A stretch of 11,681 bases of DNA from Candidatus Undinarchaeales archaeon (GTDB lineage: Archaea > SpSt-1190 > JASMDC01). The position numbers were made by a program, and so were the translations under genes. The notes under the pieces were generated by a model. That model worked only from the letters and a program-made list of their open reading frames with translations, was not told the DNA's origin and made no database searches. Location of the stretch: assembly GCA_030753015.1 (NCBI GenBank), contig JASMDC010000066.1:1-11681 (forward strand), in the 5' to 3' direction. Below, in pieces: positions 3,763 through 11,681 of the stretch; position 1 is the stretch's first letter; each line of letters opens with the position of its first letter.

Positions 3763-6444
3763 ATGGACCCATACTGGCACAACGTCTCGTACAGGGATGT
3801 GTACGATCATCTTGACACGTCCGAAAAGGGCCTCACAGAAGAGGAAACGCTCCCCCGCGTCGACAAGTACGGGCTCAACGAGCTGGAGGAGGAAGAGGGA
3901 TTCTCCATCCTCGAGCTACTCCTCGAACCGTTCCAGGACTTCATCATCATCCTCCTTTTGATCGGGCTGATCATCTCTGCCCTTCTCGGAGATGAGCGCT
4001 CGGCCATCGGCATCGCCATCGCGATCACTATCAACGTCACTGTGAGCTTCGTTCAGGAGTATCGCGCAGAGAAGGCCATCAAGGCCCTCAAACAATTGGG
4101 CGCGCTCCAAGCCAAGGTCATCAGGGGGAGCGAGGAGCGCATCATCCCAGCTCGCGACCTGGTCCCCGGTGACGTCGTGGTGCTAGAGGTCGGCTCGAAG
4201 GTCCCCGCCGACATCCGTCTCACAGAAGTGTACAACCTCTCTATAGATGAGAGCACCCTCACCGGTGAGTCCCTGCCTGTAAATAAGAACACGGAAGCTA
4301 TCGGCGAGGACACGCAGCTCTCCGAACGATCGAACATGGCCTTCTCCAGCACCGTCGTCACCGCCGGCCGCGGGAAGGGTGTCGTGGTGGCCACTGGCAG
4401 GAACACCCAGATAGGTACAATCGCGGACCTCGTTCGCGAGGCCGAGGAGGAGCAGACGCCCCTCCAAGAGCGTCTGGACGACCTGGGCAAGCAGATCGGA
4501 TGGTTCGGCATCAGCGTGTGCATCCTCTTCTTCATCATCGGAACCCTGACCAAATCACCAGACGTACCCCCCGCCGTCCACGTTGTGAATATGTTCCTCA
4601 CGTCCGTAGCCCTGGGCGTCGCAGTAGTGCCCGAGGGGCTCGCCGCCGTGGTGACCATCACGCTGGCCATCGGGCTCACACGCCTGGCACGGGTCAACGG
4701 CATCATCCGCAAGCTCCCCGCCGTGGAGACGCTCGGGTGCGCAACGGTCATCTGCAGCGACAAGACGGGAACGCTCACCAAGAACGAGATCACCGTCCGT
4801 GAGCTGTACGTCAACGACCGTCTAATCCAGCTCGAGCACACGACCAAGAAGCCCGAGGTCGACGAGCACCTCAGCCTCCTGCTCCGATCGGCATCGCTCT
4901 GCAACAACGCGAACCGCACTGACAGCGGTATCGTGGGAGATCCCTTGGAAGGTGCCCTCATCATGATGTCAGACGGCCTCGGCGTGGACCACAACTCCAT
5001 CCGGACCGCCTCGCCACGGGTCCACGAGATCCCTTTCGAGTCTCAGAACAAGTACATGGCCACCATCCACACCACGCTCGACGGCCAGATCGCCTACATC
5101 AAGGGCGCACCCGAAACCATCATAGGTCTGTGTAGCAAGGAGTTCTCCCAGGGGAACGAGCACAAGCTCACCGACCACAGGCGGACCGAGTTCCTCGAGA
5201 CCTGTCACGACATGGCCCGGCGAGGTCGGCGGGTGTTCGCCTTCGCGTACCAGCGGACAGCAGGTGACGTATGCTCCTACAAGCCCTCCAAGCTCGTGTT
5301 CATCGGCCTCATGGGTATGATGGACCCTCCGCGCGAGGAGGCCATCGAAGCAGTTGAGGTCTGCAAGGAGGCCGGGGTCCGCGTTATGATGATTACCGGG
5401 GACCACAAGCTCACCGCCGAGGCGATCGCCAAGGAGATGGGGATCCTAGAAGAGGGCCAACTGGTGCTCGAAGGGCGTGAGCTCGATCAGATGGACGATG
5501 AGGAGCTCGATCGTATCGTCGAGCAGGTCAGCGTGTTCGCACGAGCCACTCCAGAGCACAAGACCCGTATCGTCAAGGCCCTCAAAGAGAACGGTCACGT
5601 CACCGCCATGACAGGCGATGGAGTGAACGATGCACCGGCTCTGAAGAACGCGTCCATCGGCATCGCCATGGGATTGAAGGGTACGGACGTCGCGAAGGAG
5701 GCGTCGGACATGATCCTGGCCGACGACAACTTCGCCACCATCGTCAAGGCGGTCAAGGAGGGCAGGACAATCTATGTCAACATCAAGAAGTTCCTGCGCT
5801 TCCAGCTCACCACGAACGTATCTGCGATCGTTACGGTGTTCTTCATCCCTCTCCTCAAGCTACCGATCGATACGTTCGAGGCCATCCACCTCCTCTGGAT
5901 CAACCTCATCATGGACGGGCCACCCGCGCTGGCCCTCGGTGCTGAACCGGCCCCCAGCGACATCATGTCGCAGAAACCCAGGGATCCCGATGAGGATGTC
6001 CTCACCAAGCGCATGCTCGCAACCGTCGTGGTCACTGGCCTTTACCGGGCTATCGCCACGCTCTTCACCCTGTGGTGGTACCTCGAAGCGGATCCCTCGC
6101 CAGCAGGGCAGGTGCGCGCCAAGACCATGGCGTTCACCACGTTCATCCTCTTCCAGTTCTTCAACTGCTTCAACTGCAAGTCTGAGAAGTCCATCATGGA
6201 GATGAACCTCCTCTCCAACGTGTACCTCTACATGGCCGTCTTCGGGTCGTTCTTCCTTCAGGTGGTCATCGTCCACCACCCGCCCGTGGCCGCGTTCTTC
6301 AACGTCTCGCCCATGCCGATGAGCGACTGGTTGCTCGCCTTCGCCATCGCGTTCTCGGGTGTACTCGTGGAGGAGATGCGCAAGGCCCATGACCGCTATG
6401 TCAAGCAGTTCGAGGAAAAGCGTATCCCCGAGATATTAGCATAG
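3763..6444 (+). CDS. P2A-type (PMR1/SPCA-like) cation-transporting ATPase 1
   Basis: This 893-residue membrane pump couples ATP hydrolysis to export of a divalent cation, most likely Ca2+. All P-type ATPase elements are present. They are an N-terminal cation-ATPase domain, M1-M2 (about 57-99), TGES in the actuator domain (167-170), M3 (about 246-264), and M4 with PEGL (Glu291). DKTGT follows with phosphorylated Asp333, then KGAPE in the nucleotide domain (Lys447), TGD (545-547), TGDGVND (617-623), and six C-terminal membrane segments. M5 has TTNVSA and M6 has N714-LIM-D718-GPPALALG. This matches SPCA/PMR1 pumps, which keep only ion site II; the SERCA M5 glutamate of site I is Ala here. A leucine stands where yeast Pmr1 has the Gln783 linked to Mn2+ transport. 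No N-terminal metal-binding domain is seen. It is transcribed alone and faces a paralogue across 15 bases. Exact ion is inferred. Confidence 0.93.
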   Translation: MDPYWHNVSYRDVYDHLDTSEKGLTEEETLPRVDKYGLNELEEEEGFSILELLLEPFQDFIIILLLIGLIISALLGDERSAIGIAIAITINVTVSFVQEYRAEKAIKALKQLGALQAKVIRGSEERIIPARDLVPGDVVVLEVGSKVPADIRLTEVYNLSIDESTLTGESLPVNKNTEAIGEDTQLSERSNMAFSSTVVTAGRGKGVVVATGRNTQIGTIADLVREAEEEQTPLQERLDDLGKQIGWFGISVCILFFIIGTLTKSPDVPPAVHVVNMFLTSVALGVAVVPEGLAAVVTITLAIGLTRLARVNGIIRKLPAVETLGCATVICSDKTGTLTKNEITVRELYVNDRLIQLEHTTKKPEVDEHLSLLLRSASLCNNANRTDSGIVGDPLEGALIMMSDGLGVDHNSIRTASPRVHEIPFESQNKYMATIHTTLDGQIAYIKGAPETIIGLCSKEFSQGNEHKLTDHRRTEFLETCHDMARRGRRVFAFAYQRTAGDVCSYKPSKLVFIGLMGMMDPPREEAIEAVEVCKEAGVRVMMITGDHKLTAEAIAKEMGILEEGQLVLEGRELDQMDDEELDRIVEQVSVFARATPEHKTRIVKALKENGHVTAMTGDGVNDAPALKNASIGIAMGLKGTDVAKEASDMILADDNFATIVKAVKEGRTIYVNIKKFLRFQLTTNVSAIVTVFFIPLLKLPIDTFEAIHLLWINLIMDGPPALALGAEPAPSDIMSQKPRDPDEDVLTKRMLATVVVTGLYRAIATLFTLWWYLEADPSPAGQVRAKTMAFTTFILFQFFNCFNCKSEKSIMEMNLLSNVYLYMAVFGSFFLQVVIVHHPPVAAFFNVSPMPMSDWLLAFAIAFSGVLVEEMRKAHDRYVKQFEEKRIPEILA

Positions 6445-6459
6445 TTACCGGTCTACAAG

Positions 6460-9201
6460 CTAGTCGTATGCCTCTTCCCACATCCGCTCTTGGGCCTTCC
6501 GCACTTCCGTGAGGACAAGTATCGCAACACCCGCTAGAGTCAGCTTTGCCGCATCGGCCAGAGGGAGCAGGGAGGTGCCGAGCATCCCTGCTACCGGGGT
6601 GAAGACCACGACCGCTAATATCACTGCTGAGGCGAGCACCGAGATGAGGAGCGAGGGATTGGATAGCGGATTGATATGGACCAGGGACACCCTGTGGGTC
6701 CGGCACCCGAATGCCAGGAAGAGCTGCATGAGCACGAAGAGCGTGAAGACCGAAACACGCGCCACACCCAGATCACCGGCATCGAGGTATCTCTGGAAGA
6801 GCCATAGACAGGAACCGGCGATGACAAGCCCGTAGAGGACGACGTCGGTAATGATGTCACGAGAGAGAAGCTTCTCAGTCGGGTTCCTCGGCGGCCGGTT
6901 CATGATCGACCGCACTGGTGGCTCCAGACCAAGAGCGAGTGCGGGGGGGCCGTCCATCACGATGTTTATGAGAAGGATCTGGATGGGAGTGAGCGGAGCC
7001 GGCATCCCGATCGCCGTTGCGACGAACATGAGCGTGAGAGCTGCGACGTTCGCGGTCAGCTGGAACCGGAGGAACTTACGTAGGTTCGTGTAGATAGTGC
7101 GCCCCTCTTTCACAGCGGTCACGATCGTCGCGAAGTTGTCGTCGGCCAGGATCATATCGGCCGTCTCCTTGGCCACGTCGGTGCCGATGATCGCCATGGA
7201 CACACCGATGTCGGCCTTGCTGAGAGCCGGCGCATCATTGACACCGTCACCTGTCATGGCGACGATGTGGCCCTTGGCCTTGAGCGCCTCGAGGATCCGC
7301 ACCTTGTGCTCCGGGGTCACCCTGGAGAACACATTGCATTGCAAGACCTTCTCTCCGAAAGCCTTGTCGTCCATCTCATCGATCTCTGAGCCGGTACACG
7401 CCTCATCGTTATCTTCGAGGATGTCCAGCTCGCGGGCAACTGCCATCGCTGTGTGCTTCTGATCGCCCGTGATCATGACCACCCGTATACCAGCGGCCCT
7501 GCACTGTGCAACCGCGTCGTGGACCTCGGCCCGAGCGGGATCGATCATTCCCACCAGACCTGCGAACACCAAGCCGGTAGGATCGTCCTTCCGGTTGTCA
7601 TCACCGTAGGCGAAAGCAAGCACTCGCATGGCCTTCTCGCAGAAAGCGTCGTTGACTTCCTCGATGCATGCCACCTGATCCGGGCCGAGTGGAAGTGACT
7701 TACCATCGAAGTATACATGGTCGCACATGTCGAGCACGACATCAAGGGCGCCCTTCACGAACGTCACGGTGGCGCCCGATTCGTGGTCCTGATGCACCGT
7801 CACCATGTGTCGGATATCGGACTCGAAGGGCACCTCATCGATCCGCTTGAGCCTCTTGGTGAGTATATCGGTCGCTCCGGCCTTGTAGCCGAGGACCTTC
7901 AGGGCAGCTTCGGTTGGATCACCGATCGCCTCACCGTCCACGAGAGCCGCGTTGTTGCATAGAAAGGCCACTTCGGCGAGCGGGAAGAGCTCCTCTGGAT
8001 CAGCCTGGGCCTGACGACCGTTGACATCGGTAGCGGCCTCGCCCGCGGCATCGGCACTGTGACAGCCTGCGCTCACATCGGGATCGAAGAAGAAGTCACC
8101 GTGATGGGAATATCCGTCACCGGTGACCAAGAAGCTCCGCCCGTTGAAGAACACCTCGCGAACGGTCATCTTGTTATGGGTCAACGTTCCCGTCTTGTCC
8201 GAGCAGATGACCGTTGTGCACCCGAGCGTCTCGACCGCTGGAAGCTGTTTGACGATCGCCTTCTCTTCAGCCATCCGTCGCATACCCAAGGCGAGCGTGA
8301 CCGTCACGACCGTCGGTAGCCCTTCCGGGATCGCTGCCACGGCAAGGCTCACGGAAACAGAGAACACCTCAACGATGTCATGTCCGGACATCATCGACAG
8401 CACGAAGAAGAGCGTGCACACCAGCACTGCGAAAGCGCCCAGCTTCTTGGCCAGGTCCGCGATCTGAACCTGGAGTGGAGTGGGCCCGGGCTCCTCGGCG
8501 ACGATGCTGGCGATCCTGCCCATCTCCGTGTCGATACCGGTGCCGATGATAACGGCCACGGCCCTCCCACGTGTCACATGCGTCCCCATGTAGACCATGT
8601 TGGTCCTCTCGGCCAGGGGCACATCGTTTGTGATCCGGTCCGCCCGCTTGGCCACAGGGAGCGACTCCCCGGTAAGGGACGACTCGTCAACCTGGAACGA
8701 GTAGGCCTCGATGAGGCGGGCATCGGCGGGGACCTTCTCACCCTCCTCCAGAAGAAGGATGTCTCCAGGGACGATATCAGCTACATCGACGATCTCTTCG
8801 GTGTCATCGCGTAGCATTCGCGCCGTGAAGCTGGACATCTGCTTCAGCGCGTCCACCGAGCGTCGGGACATGATCTCCTGGCGGAACCCGAGCGAGCAGT
8901 TCAGCACTGTCGCCAGGAATATACCCACCGCATCCTTGGTCTTCCCGACAAAGTAGGATACGATAGCGGACACCAGGAGAAGGAGGATGAGCGGCTCAAG
9001 GAACTGATCGAGGAGCAGGCGCCATGCAGGCCGTCGCTCCGCCTCAGGAAGCTTGTTTTGCCCGAAGCGGTCCAGGCGTTCGGCCGTTTGTCGGTCCGAG
9101 AGCCCAGCAAGGGTCGTCCCCATCTCCACGAGCACGTCATCTAATCGCTTCTTGTACATAGGATCGTCCGCGGCCACGAGAGGCGGGTGGTCAACGACCA
9201 T
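6460..9201 (-). CDS. P2A-type (PMR1/SPCA-like) cation-transporting ATPase 2
   Basis: This 913-residue paralogue of the pump at 3763-6444 is complete. It has TGES (177-180), M4 with IPEGL (Glu293), DKTGT with phosphorylated Asp335, KGALD in place of KGAPE (Lys483), TGD (578-580), GDGVND (651-656), M5 with TANVAAL (Asn718), and M6 with N746-IVM-D750-GPPALALG. Like its neighbour it has only the site-II residues of SPCA-type pumps. The stretch between DKTGT and the KGA motif is about 34 residues longer; the extra part (about 362-405) is rich in His, Asp and Ala with one Cys. ATG 9201 is supported both by TATATA 26.5 bases upstream and by GGAGG 8 bases upstream. An alternative leaderless GTG at 9177 has TTTTAAAA about 27 bases upstream. 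Two diverged pumps may serve different ions, affinities or conditions; the ion (Ca2+ most likely) is inferred. Confidence 0.93.
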   Translation of the reverse strand: MVVDHPPLVAADDPMYKKRLDDVLVEMGTTLAGLSDRQTAERLDRFGQNKLPEAERRPAWRLLLDQFLEPLILLLLVSAIVSYFVGKTKDAVGIFLATVLNCSLGFRQEIMSRRSVDALKQMSSFTARMLRDDTEEIVDVADIVPGDILLLEEGEKVPADARLIEAYSFQVDESSLTGESLPVAKRADRITNDVPLAERTNMVYMGTHVTRGRAVAVIIGTGIDTEMGRIASIVAEEPGPTPLQVQIADLAKKLGAFAVLVCTLFFVLSMMSGHDIVEVFSVSVSLAVAAIPEGLPTVVTVTLALGMRRMAEEKAIVKQLPAVETLGCTTVICSDKTGTLTHNKMTVREVFFNGRSFLVTGDGYSHHGDFFFDPDVSAGCHSADAAGEAATDVNGRQAQADPEELFPLAEVAFLCNNAALVDGEAIGDPTEAALKVLGYKAGATDILTKRLKRIDEVPFESDIRHMVTVHQDHESGATVTFVKGALDVVLDMCDHVYFDGKSLPLGPDQVACIEEVNDAFCEKAMRVLAFAYGDDNRKDDPTGLVFAGLVGMIDPARAEVHDAVAQCRAAGIRVVMITGDQKHTAMAVARELDILEDNDEACTGSEIDEMDDKAFGEKVLQCNVFSRVTPEHKVRILEALKAKGHIVAMTGDGVNDAPALSKADIGVSMAIIGTDVAKETADMILADDNFATIVTAVKEGRTIYTNLRKFLRFQLTANVAALTLMFVATAIGMPAPLTPIQILLINIVMDGPPALALGLEPPVRSIMNRPPRNPTEKLLSRDIITDVVLYGLVIAGSCLWLFQRYLDAGDLGVARVSVFTLFVLMQLFLAFGCRTHRVSLVHINPLSNPSLLISVLASAVILAVVVFTPVAGMLGTSLLPLADAAKLTLAGVAILVLTEVRKAQERMWEEAYD

Positions 9202-9258: not shown

Positions 9259-10536
9259 CTACGCTATGGGGGTCAGCACGTACATGCTGGATGTCGACTC
9301 CTCAGTGTCGGGCACGTGCTCAGGTGTGCAGATGCCGAAGGAATCGAGAACGTCGCAACCACCACATCTCTCGGGTGCGGTCTCACAAGCGGCCGTCTTG
9401 GGCCCGGGCTCGTAGTCGATGAGACAAGATAGCTTGTTGCCACAGTCCATCATCAGCTTGGATTTGAGGGCCGCGGCAGTTAGCTCTTGCTGATCTGGCA
9501 GCTTGTGGCTCGCTGCCTCCAGTCGGTCGCACAGCACGGTCTTCACGGACACGTCAGCGTCATAACCGAACTCCTGCTTGAAGGTCTTGTCCGCCTCCTT
9601 GTACTTCTCCATCAGGTTCTTAGAGCTTCCTTGGAGCCCCGCCATGTCCGACAGGTGCTGACGGCACACAACCGGCCACTTTTCGAAAGGGGCGCGGCGA
9701 CACTGCATATCGAACTTCTTCTTCACCGCGACCATCGCCTTGAGGTTGAGGGCGATGTCCTGCATGTTCTCAAGATAGTCGTCCACGGCGTCGGTGCTCC
9801 TCTTCAGTTCACGCGAAATCTCGCAGAAGCTCTCGAGGTCCGCGAAGTCCTTGGCCACATCGGATGCCTTTCCCTTGAGCCTTAGCCACCAGTCCTTGAG
9901 GGAGAAGGTACCACCTATCCCACAACTCTCCTTGATACAGTCCACCCGATTCTTGCACTCGGCCACCCGCCGTTCCATGTTCTGTAGGCACAGGGCCTCC
10001 TTCATCTGGTCGTTCATACCCTCGCCGAACGCCTCTATCCGGTAGAGTTCCACCGCATTGTCGGGATCCGCGCACACCGCGTCGATGTCGATCCCGTCCG
10101 GATCGATGTCGGTGATGGTCTCCTTGAACTCCTCGACCGTACGATCGGTACCGAGCCGGCAGAGGGCCCGGAACTCCTCGATGCGGTCCTCACAGGTCGT
10201 GCAGAGTGAGTGAGCATAGTACCGCACCTCGTGGAACTCCCTACCAAGGATGCAGAGCAGGAGTTCCTTCTTGGTCAAGTAGGCAAAGGTCTGGCCCATG
10301 AACTCAGCGGTCGTCGACGCACTGGTGAACGAGGGGCAGGCCTTCATGCCAAGGTCCGCCGAGAAGTCCTTGAGGTCGGCCTTGTACGACATCCCTATGG
10401 CCTCTTCCTCCAGTAGTACAGCCTTGCACGTCTCCTGCTCGAAGGGCGGTGGGACGCACTCGACGGCCATGCCCGGGAGGGTGAGCATAAGGACGACTAA
10501 TATTGCGATCATAGCCGGGCAGCGGTAGCTATCCAC
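9259..10536 (-). CDS. Secreted Cys-rich helical protein, unknown function
   Basis: I do not recognise this 425-residue protein. GTG 10536 is chosen because GGAGG lies 9 bases upstream; ATG 10512 is possible, and the frame is open to 10596. The N-terminus has a signal peptide: a short head with one Arg, hydrophobic core IAILVVLMLTLPG and a likely cut after GMA. There is no lipobox. The rest is mostly charged, probably alpha-helical sequence with 22 cysteines, an even number that fits 11 disulfides outside the cell. Cysteine pairs include SLCTTC, DCIKESC and RCGGC. No membrane anchor is seen at the C-terminus, so it is released or held by a partner. It overlaps the end of the preceding gene by 8 bases, so the two products are probably co-translated and may act together. 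ATPase 2 follows after 57 bases. Confidence 0.82.
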   Translation of the reverse strand: MDSYRCPAMIAILVVLMLTLPGMAVECVPPPFEQETCKAVLLEEEAIGMSYKADLKDFSADLGMKACPSFTSASTTAEFMGQTFAYLTKKELLLCILGREFHEVRYYAHSLCTTCEDRIEEFRALCRLGTDRTVEEFKETITDIDPDGIDIDAVCADPDNAVELYRIEAFGEGMNDQMKEALCLQNMERRVAECKNRVDCIKESCGIGGTFSLKDWWLRLKGKASDVAKDFADLESFCEISRELKRSTDAVDDYLENMQDIALNLKAMVAVKKKFDMQCRRAPFEKWPVVCRQHLSDMAGLQGSSKNLMEKYKEADKTFKQEFGYDADVSVKTVLCDRLEAASHKLPDQQELTAAALKSKLMMDCGNKLSCLIDYEPGPKTAACETAPERCGGCDVLDSFGICTPEHVPDTEESTSSMYVLTPIA

Positions 10537-11681
10537 GGCTGCATCCCTCCTCCCATCCACCGGGATTCTGTACGAGTGAAACAGGGCTCTGGGCAAGGAC
10601 CGTGGTCCCCTTCCTCAGCTGGAGGATCGCCGACGTCGGAACGGCAGGGAGTGCACCGTCCTGACATCCTGTCGCGAAGGACGTGCGGATGAGCACGCCG
10701 CGCGGAGTGGAGAGCATGCTCGCCACATTCCCCTTGACGGTCCGGGGACCGGCCGTTATCTCAGGTACCACGGACCGCTCGTTGAGCCCTTCGGTGCCAT
10801 CGGCCTCAACGGTCACGTACACGTCCAGGTCGAATCCGTGGACGAGCTGGAGCTGGAACACCCGGGGAGGATCCACACCCACTATCTCCATGGCGAGAGG
10901 GATCGAGGTGAGAACTAACACGGGGAGGATCGAAGTGCCACGTCGGCCGAGGCTATCGATGCTGAACGTCAACTTATGCTGCCCCAAGGGCGCATCATCG
11001 TGCTGGAGCAAGGCTCTGAGAACGCCCCTGCGTCCGTCCTCGCCCAGCTCGAGCCCGGCGATGGGAGCTATCCGGGTCTTGCCATTGACAGTGAAGTTGA
11101 GCTGCATCTCGGAGCGGCGTACTTCTGTAACCGCCTCATCGCTCCCCTGATAATCGATCGTGAAGGGGAGGGTGAGGGTGGCCCCATTCCGTATGGCTTT
11201 TTCGCTCACCTGCCTCTTGTCGTCGAGGAACGCCACATCGAGCTTGCGGTACTGCTCGGGGAAGGGAACGGATACTTGGGTCGTGAGCGCGAGCACTTCG
11301 TCAGCGTAATCTATGACCACTTTGAGCTTCTCGTATCCCGGGGTAAGGGAGTTGACATCGAACGCGGTCGTGATCTTGTGCTCGACACCGTTACGCTTAT
11401 GCTCGATGGCGCTTGCAGGTACGCCGCCAAGGGTCACGGTGAAGTCGTCCTTACGGGGGACTAGTTGTGGTGGGTTCACGACGACACCGAACGTCACGAT
11501 ACCGTCCTCCACGTCACCTATCTTGGTGAGGTGTGCGAGCATCGTCGGCCGCACGCACCCGTCGGCCTGGCAGAGCTGGGCCAGGCGGCAGGTGGCCACG
11601 AGCGCTCCTTCATGGAGACAGCCACATTCCTTGAAGAAACAGACCTGGCCCGAGTCCACGCAACCGATCTCCTTGTCCCCG
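10529..11681 (-). CDS. Cys-cluster and Ig-like-domain surface protein, 5' end outside window
   Basis: The frame is open through the right edge, so the N-terminus is missing; GTG 11659 is unlikely to be the start because the codons before it continue the same Cys-rich pattern (GDKEIGC). The first visible segment is a cysteine cluster with spacing C-x6-C-x4-C-x-C-x9-C-x5-C-x4-C. Then come about 330 residues of beta-strand-like sequence with alternating hydrophobics and VNPP/VDPP-type linkers, looking like about three tandem Ig-like or CARDB-like domains. The protein ends GGWEEGCSRG with no membrane anchor. Two more Cys occur near the C-terminus. The cysteines and beta domains suggest an extracellular protein, but its signal peptide cannot be seen. 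Its end overlaps the start of the secreted Cys-rich protein by 8 bases, so they form one operon. I recognise no family. Confidence 0.75.
   Translation of the reverse strand, partial: GDKEIGCVDSGQVCFFKECGCLHEGALVATCRLAQLCQADGCVRPTMLAHLTKIGDVEDGIVTFGVVVNPPQLVPRKDDFTVTLGGVPASAIEHKRNGVEHKITTAFDVNSLTPGYEKLKVVIDYADEVLALTTQVSVPFPEQYRKLDVAFLDDKRQVSEKAIRNGATLTLPFTIDYQGSDEAVTEVRRSEMQLNFTVNGKTRIAPIAGLELGEDGRRGVLRALLQHDDAPLGQHKLTFSIDSLGRRGTSILPVLVLTSIPLAMEIVGVDPPRVFQLQLVHGFDLDVYVTVEADGTEGLNERSVVPEITAGPRTVKGNVASMLSTPRGVLIRTSFATGCQDGALPAVPTSAILQLRKGTTVLAQSPVSLVQNPGGWEEGCSRG
10546..10550 (-). promoter_or_regulatory. SD site for the secreted Cys-rich protein
   Basis: GGAGG on the minus strand, 9 bases before GTG 10536 and inside the end of the preceding gene. 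It decides GTG 10536 over ATG 10512, which has no SD-like sequence at a suitable distance. Confidence 0.6.

Follow-up and report, generated by a model that had tools for sequence, protein, structure and literature searches.

Two Cys-rich genes at the end of a contig

The window analysed here, 11,681 nucleotides long, corresponds to the complete contig C80 in the genome G000. Its right-hand end carries two open reading frames on the minus strand, X and Y, both present where the preliminary description had placed them. Gene X (9259..10536, −) encodes a predicted exported orphan of 425 residues when read from a GTG start. An alternative start, the ATG at 10512, would give 417 residues with 22 Cys, whereas reading from the GTG at 10536 gives 23 Cys, one of which lies within the signal peptide and 22 downstream of it. 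The GTG is the better start, because a ribosome-binding site with the sequence AGGAGG (10546..10551, −) lies 9 nt before it, within the end of Y, and because the X start overlaps the Y stop by 8 nt. This arrangement makes the translational coupling of X to Y that had been proposed plausible. The probable signal peptide, VDSYRCPAMIAILVVLMLTLPGMA (10465..10536, −), would be cleaved before VEC, as judged by inspection. Hydropathy reaches its maximum at residues 6–28 and all later segments stay at or below 0.92, leaving a single strong hydrophobic stretch at the N terminus, in line with the earlier reading of X as a signal-peptide protein with 22 Cys. Third-position GC content (GC3) is 0.79 in X and 0.75 in Y, as in the other window genes tested (0.75–0.82), and both therefore look like real genes.

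Gene Y (10529..11681, −) supplies the C-terminal 383 residues of a protein of a family that we call A, and is open at the contig end. Since the window is an entire contig, the 5′ end of Y is absent from it, as had been noted; a search with a family-A profile located the missing half, a further 284 residues, on a second contig (C85:1-853, −). The window part of Y has nine Cys, seven of them within its first 42 residues (positions 7, 14, 19, 21, 31, 37 and 42), in a Cys-rich module (11552..11680, −) that is the second member of the tandem pair of Cys modules in family A. Most family members also conserve an eighth Cys of this cluster, which in Y probably lies in the stretch missing between C80 and C85. 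An AlphaFold model built from 20 sequences (mean pLDDT 85.7) comprises a Cys-rich β module (residues 1–43) and three Ig-like domains at residues 48–138 (11267..11539, −), 146–257 (10910..11245, −) and 263–370 (10571..10894, −), which bears out the dense Cys cluster and Ig-like repeats read earlier from the sequence. Foldseek matches to the model were strings of Ig and cadherin domains, and plexin PSI/IPT structures superposed on it with Z 9–10 and an rmsd of 14–15 Å. Plexin PSI–IPT stalks resemble Y in having a Cys module ahead of a series of Ig-like domains; however, we found no sequence similarity, and what is shared is a layout, not descent.

Neither protein gave a significant match in Pfam, NCBIfam or PHROGs, so the initial view that both belong to unrecognised families holds against these collections. 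At the sensitivity used, searches of G000 itself, of 393 further archaeal genomes and of collections of plasmids, viruses and GTDB contigs turned up no relative of X. The suggestion that the pair is disulfide-rich and extracellular, at the surface or secreted, is supported, with export and the disulfides themselves predicted.

Reconstruction of the locus across two contigs

Searched with a family-A profile built without Y, Y matched with E 4e-49 and the half on C85 with E 1e-26. Y spans profile positions 525–911 and the fragment at the left end of C85 spans positions 386–513, running off the contig end in the same orientation as Y. No other A copy is split, the remaining 19 in the genome being complete, and the two halves complement each other. 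Given these complementary ranges, we conclude from the sequence that C80 and C85 are very probably neighbours, separated by a gap of about 33 nt. The full-length Y would be a short A protein of about 680 residues, compared with about 950 for most others. Joined in this way, the locus reads, on one strand, ABC ATPase, CARDB protein, FtsX/MacB-like permease, B, Y and X, where the gene that we call B (C85:844-2694, same strand as Y) adjoins Y. The C85 genes before Y are spaced by overlaps or by a 46-nt gap. The locus thus contains at least B–Y–X and is possibly a six-gene operon. Upstream of it, C85 also carries four tandem paralogous genes for Cys-rich, lipoprotein-like proteins with conserved Cys spacing (L068:6205-8704, +).

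Families A and B

Profile searches found 20 copies of family A in G000, and 19 of these adjoin a B gene on the same strand, in either order, many overlapping it by 4–13 nt. A full-length A protein has a leader, Ig-like domains, two tandem Cys modules and C-terminal Ig-like domains as in Y; Y itself has the Cys module, the C-terminal Ig-like domains and the adjoining B gene. The copies are divergent, with 22–60% identity to the first. The preliminary description had treated X and Y as a pair, to be checked for co-occurrence in relatives, and had counted a lack of co-occurrence against it. A conserved X–Y pair is not supported, and the two genes do not co-occur elsewhere: X, for which no relatives were found, was dropped as a conserved partner of Y, and in place of such a pair stands the larger, repeated B–A system. 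It is B–A, not X–Y, that forms the conserved unit. We also dropped the idea that X is a diverged B protein, the upstream B gene being already present on C85.

B proteins are about 610 residues long and most have a class III (pilin-type) signal peptide. The motif [KRDE][GA][ALIFQMVED][ILMVTAS], followed by a hydrophobic helix of 20 residues, is found in 14 of 17 B proteins. It is absent from the other three, and the B protein on C85, as read, also lacks it, starting MNQSLLALFG, not RGQ. G000 encodes a prepilin peptidase (PF01478; L108:15817-16458; 31.0 bits against a cut-off of 26.5), and next to the modules that we read we recognised neither a pilus ATPase nor a TadC gene. A and X have no class III motif and look like Sec-exported proteins. 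An AlphaFold model of B (pLDDT 86) has a helix at residues 14–83, then an α/β part, then C-terminal transthyretin/CnaB-like (TTR/CnaB-like) domains. Residues 1–390 had no clear match in Foldseek or VIA, and the effective test of the model covered residues 398–595 only.

Like B, archaeal type IV pilins and other class III signal-peptide proteins combine a pilin-type N-terminal motif and helix with β-rich outer domains. Large signal-peptide proteins, interpreted as adhesins or minor pilins, and conserved, probably disulfide-bonded Cys have been described in type IV pilus loci of Thermoproteales (Makarova et al. 2016, PMC4858521). The G000 system differs from archaeal type IV pilins in the size of B and its α/β core, in its roughly 20 modules and in the absence of the motif from A and X.

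Variable Cys-rich partners

Many A–B modules have a further Cys-rich gene beside them. We scored a neighbour as Cys-rich if it had at least 15 Cys and at least 2.5% Cys, a threshold chosen after seeing the data, using open reading frames of at least 150 residues from a custom caller, which also underlies the module counts. By this measure 13 of 19 A–B modules, with X counted, have a Cys-rich direct neighbour, compared with 19 of 267 (7%) random neighbouring pairs in G000 (P about 2e-11); the other six modules have none. The partners at other modules are Cys-rich proteins of 750–2500 residues, different at each locus; their recognised domains are Kazal, M23, SLT, FG-GAP, C-type lectin and TSP3 repeats, and in several no domain was recognised. 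X, the smallest of these proteins, is unique. It fits as the variable partner of the A–B module at its locus, a role assigned to it solely by position.

Several proteins of G000 stand out individually. Giant Cys-rich exported proteins with a Peptidase_M23 domain lie directly before A–B pairs at L025:806-7129 and L023:12471-18131, the former having an SLT domain as well. Two other giants carry three C-type lectin domains (L033:4-7483) and three Kazal domains (L024:3409-7773); both kinds of domain are usual in animals. Exported reading frames at L022:956-5251 and L024:12458-18958 contain 181 and 207 Cys, respectively, and no Pfam domain. A complete SecA, with DEAD, preprotein-binding and wing/scaffold domains, is encoded 72 nt behind one A–B module (L023:5282-7750; G000:C41, −), and its GC content of 0.62 is like that of its surroundings. 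SecA is normally bacterial, and a literature search found no paper titled on an archaeal SecA.

Host genome and distribution

The G000 assembly comprises 3.85 Mb in 117 contigs (98.9% complete, 5% contamination), compared with 0.6–1.1 Mb in nine phylum-mates. We take the genome to be archaeal because of a deoxyhypusine synthase gene in the window and genes for aIF2-γ, RFC, SRP54, FEN1 and prefoldin elsewhere, the latter five recognised by eye in other contigs; an archaeal 16S rRNA was not found in the assembly. In an aIF2-γ tree G000 falls near archaeon UBA543 on the DPANN (Woesearchaeota/Nanoarchaeota) side, with the forks open, and a check at the DNA level did not place UBA543 in the phylum of G000.

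Family A is absent from the nine phylum-mates. Among 384 other archaea the A profile gave nothing beyond weak, partial matches (E from 2e-7 to 7e-4), most of them at profile positions 190–440, which we read as generic Ig-like similarity. B has distant relatives in other archaea: an alignment of seven of them matched B in hhalign at a probability of 99.7% (E 2e-25, 444 columns). The similarity holds in both directions, as a profile of these outside sequences (A5) recovered 13 B genes of G000, with a best E of 1e-18. The same profile matched 242 of 279 genomes of one phylum; among named genomes, it matched all 17 from Woesearchaeota and Nanoarchaeota and none of 14 other archaea, and UBA543 was negative. 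No Pfam or NCBIfam model covers this B-like family. Its members share with B the N-terminal helix, the 'GGY...PYW...P' block and the Cys positions, but occur as 1–10 matches per named genome with different large neighbours, whereas G000 has about 20 copies together with family A. At several loci that we read in other DPANN genomes the B-like gene adjoins large, Cys-containing exported proteins. Such neighbours of about 1000 residues and about 30 Cys were ruled out as A homologues (hhalign probability 0.3%; three tested), and four giants read beside B-like genes in these genomes had no SLT or M23 domain.

A candidate surface-display module

We propose that B–A–X is a disulfide-stabilised surface display or adhesin module with interchangeable partners, X and Y being the last two genes of one copy, a reading to which we give about an even chance. 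What sequence and models establish is the order of the genes, the copies of the families, the presence of a pilin-like motif in most B proteins, Y's Ig fold and the statistics on partners. From these we infer export, disulfide formation, physical association of A, B and X, display and a role in cell–cell contact. The pilin-type N-terminal helix of B would hold it in the membrane or at the base of a filament, with its mixed α/β and transthyretin-like β domains projecting outside. A, here Y, would be exported and, attached to B, form a rigid stalk of Ig-like domains knotted by disulfides. The product of the third gene, here X, would be the part that varies; displayed or held by the A–B scaffold, it would confer on its module a particular specificity, in binding or in enzymatic action, towards other cells or envelopes.

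The same genes could instead encode an envelope or S-layer module, in which A and B would be disulfide-cross-linked structural subunits of a cell coat. The Cys-rich third proteins, X among them, would then be further wall proteins with no displayed specificity. Cys are abundant in all parts of the module, all three Ig-like domains of Y superpose on Sap, EA1, SbsB and SbsC, which are S-layer proteins (Z about 8), and the A profile matches Sap weakly (E 0.009). As signs of an S-layer anchoring or assembly domain, these amount to a generic Ig-string match and a weak Sap hit. However, a Z of about 8 is no better than that for other Ig strings, and 20 divergent A copies with locus-specific M23, SLT, lectin or Kazal partners fit diversified interactions better than they fit a uniform lattice. 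We consider a coat rather unlikely.

We also judge it unlikely that the unit is B–A only and that X is a locus-specific secreted protein, for instance a small inhibitor, toxin or enzyme rich in Cys, that lies behind Y by chance and works alone. X is unique in G000 and among the 393 other archaea, and other loci in the order B–A have nothing comparable after A, as this explanation would have it; yet X overlaps Y and has a good ribosome-binding site, as co-translated subunits often do, and it is Cys-rich like the partners at most other modules. A third explanation, that X is a diverged i-type lysozyme (destabilase, PF05497) in a peptidoglycan-attacking device, is very improbable despite a weak Pfam match (E 0.07) and the peptidoglycan-active domains of partners at two other modules, as the match scores 13.8 bits, far below the cut-off of 26.2, and covers about 80 of the 425 residues of X, which has no match in the PDB at E ≤ 10.

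Returning to the display module, we would group it with pilin-like and adhesin surface modules, which are of a known kind; that it is a distinct apparatus is an unproven chance. More tentatively, and with the balance of probability against it, it may represent an undescribed, disulfide-armoured surface apparatus of DPANN type, in which a conserved B–A scaffold of pilin-like protein and Ig stalk, with swappable Cys-rich partners that bear lectin, protease-inhibitor or peptidoglycan-hydrolase domains, is amplified about 20-fold in a single lineage with a large genome and serves to contact or attack other cells. Large murein-degrading proteins of Woesearchaeota (Castelle et al. 2021, PMC8204110; Vigneron et al. 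2022, PMC9723730) and archaeal peptidoglycan hydrolases that kill bacteria (PMC12352652) provide a precedent for a role of some partners in attack or attachment, and bear on X by analogy only. The lytic-transglycosylase proteins of Pacearchaeota and Woesearchaeota in fam00969 (PMC8204110) are likewise giant, exported, murein-degrading DPANN proteins, and one G000 partner has both M23 and SLT; the G000 partners, however, are far richer in Cys and adjoin A–B, and the likeness drawn here is one of description.

For the largely open question of how DPANN archaea recognise their partners and hold on to them, the B-like family, the Ig-like stalks and the variable Cys-rich partners, with their binding or wall-degrading domains, provide concrete, testable genes. 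The B-like family is present in nearly all examined genomes of one DPANN phylum and unnamed in Pfam and NCBIfam, and the multiplication of the module in the large genome of G000 makes its modular logic readable.

Other genes in the window

Two different, convergent P-type cation ATPase genes (3763-9201) adjoin the X–Y operon. Nearer the start of the window, a small open reading frame (1410-1904) of uncertain coding status contains DxxHTYRxxxVDKGP repeats in tandem.
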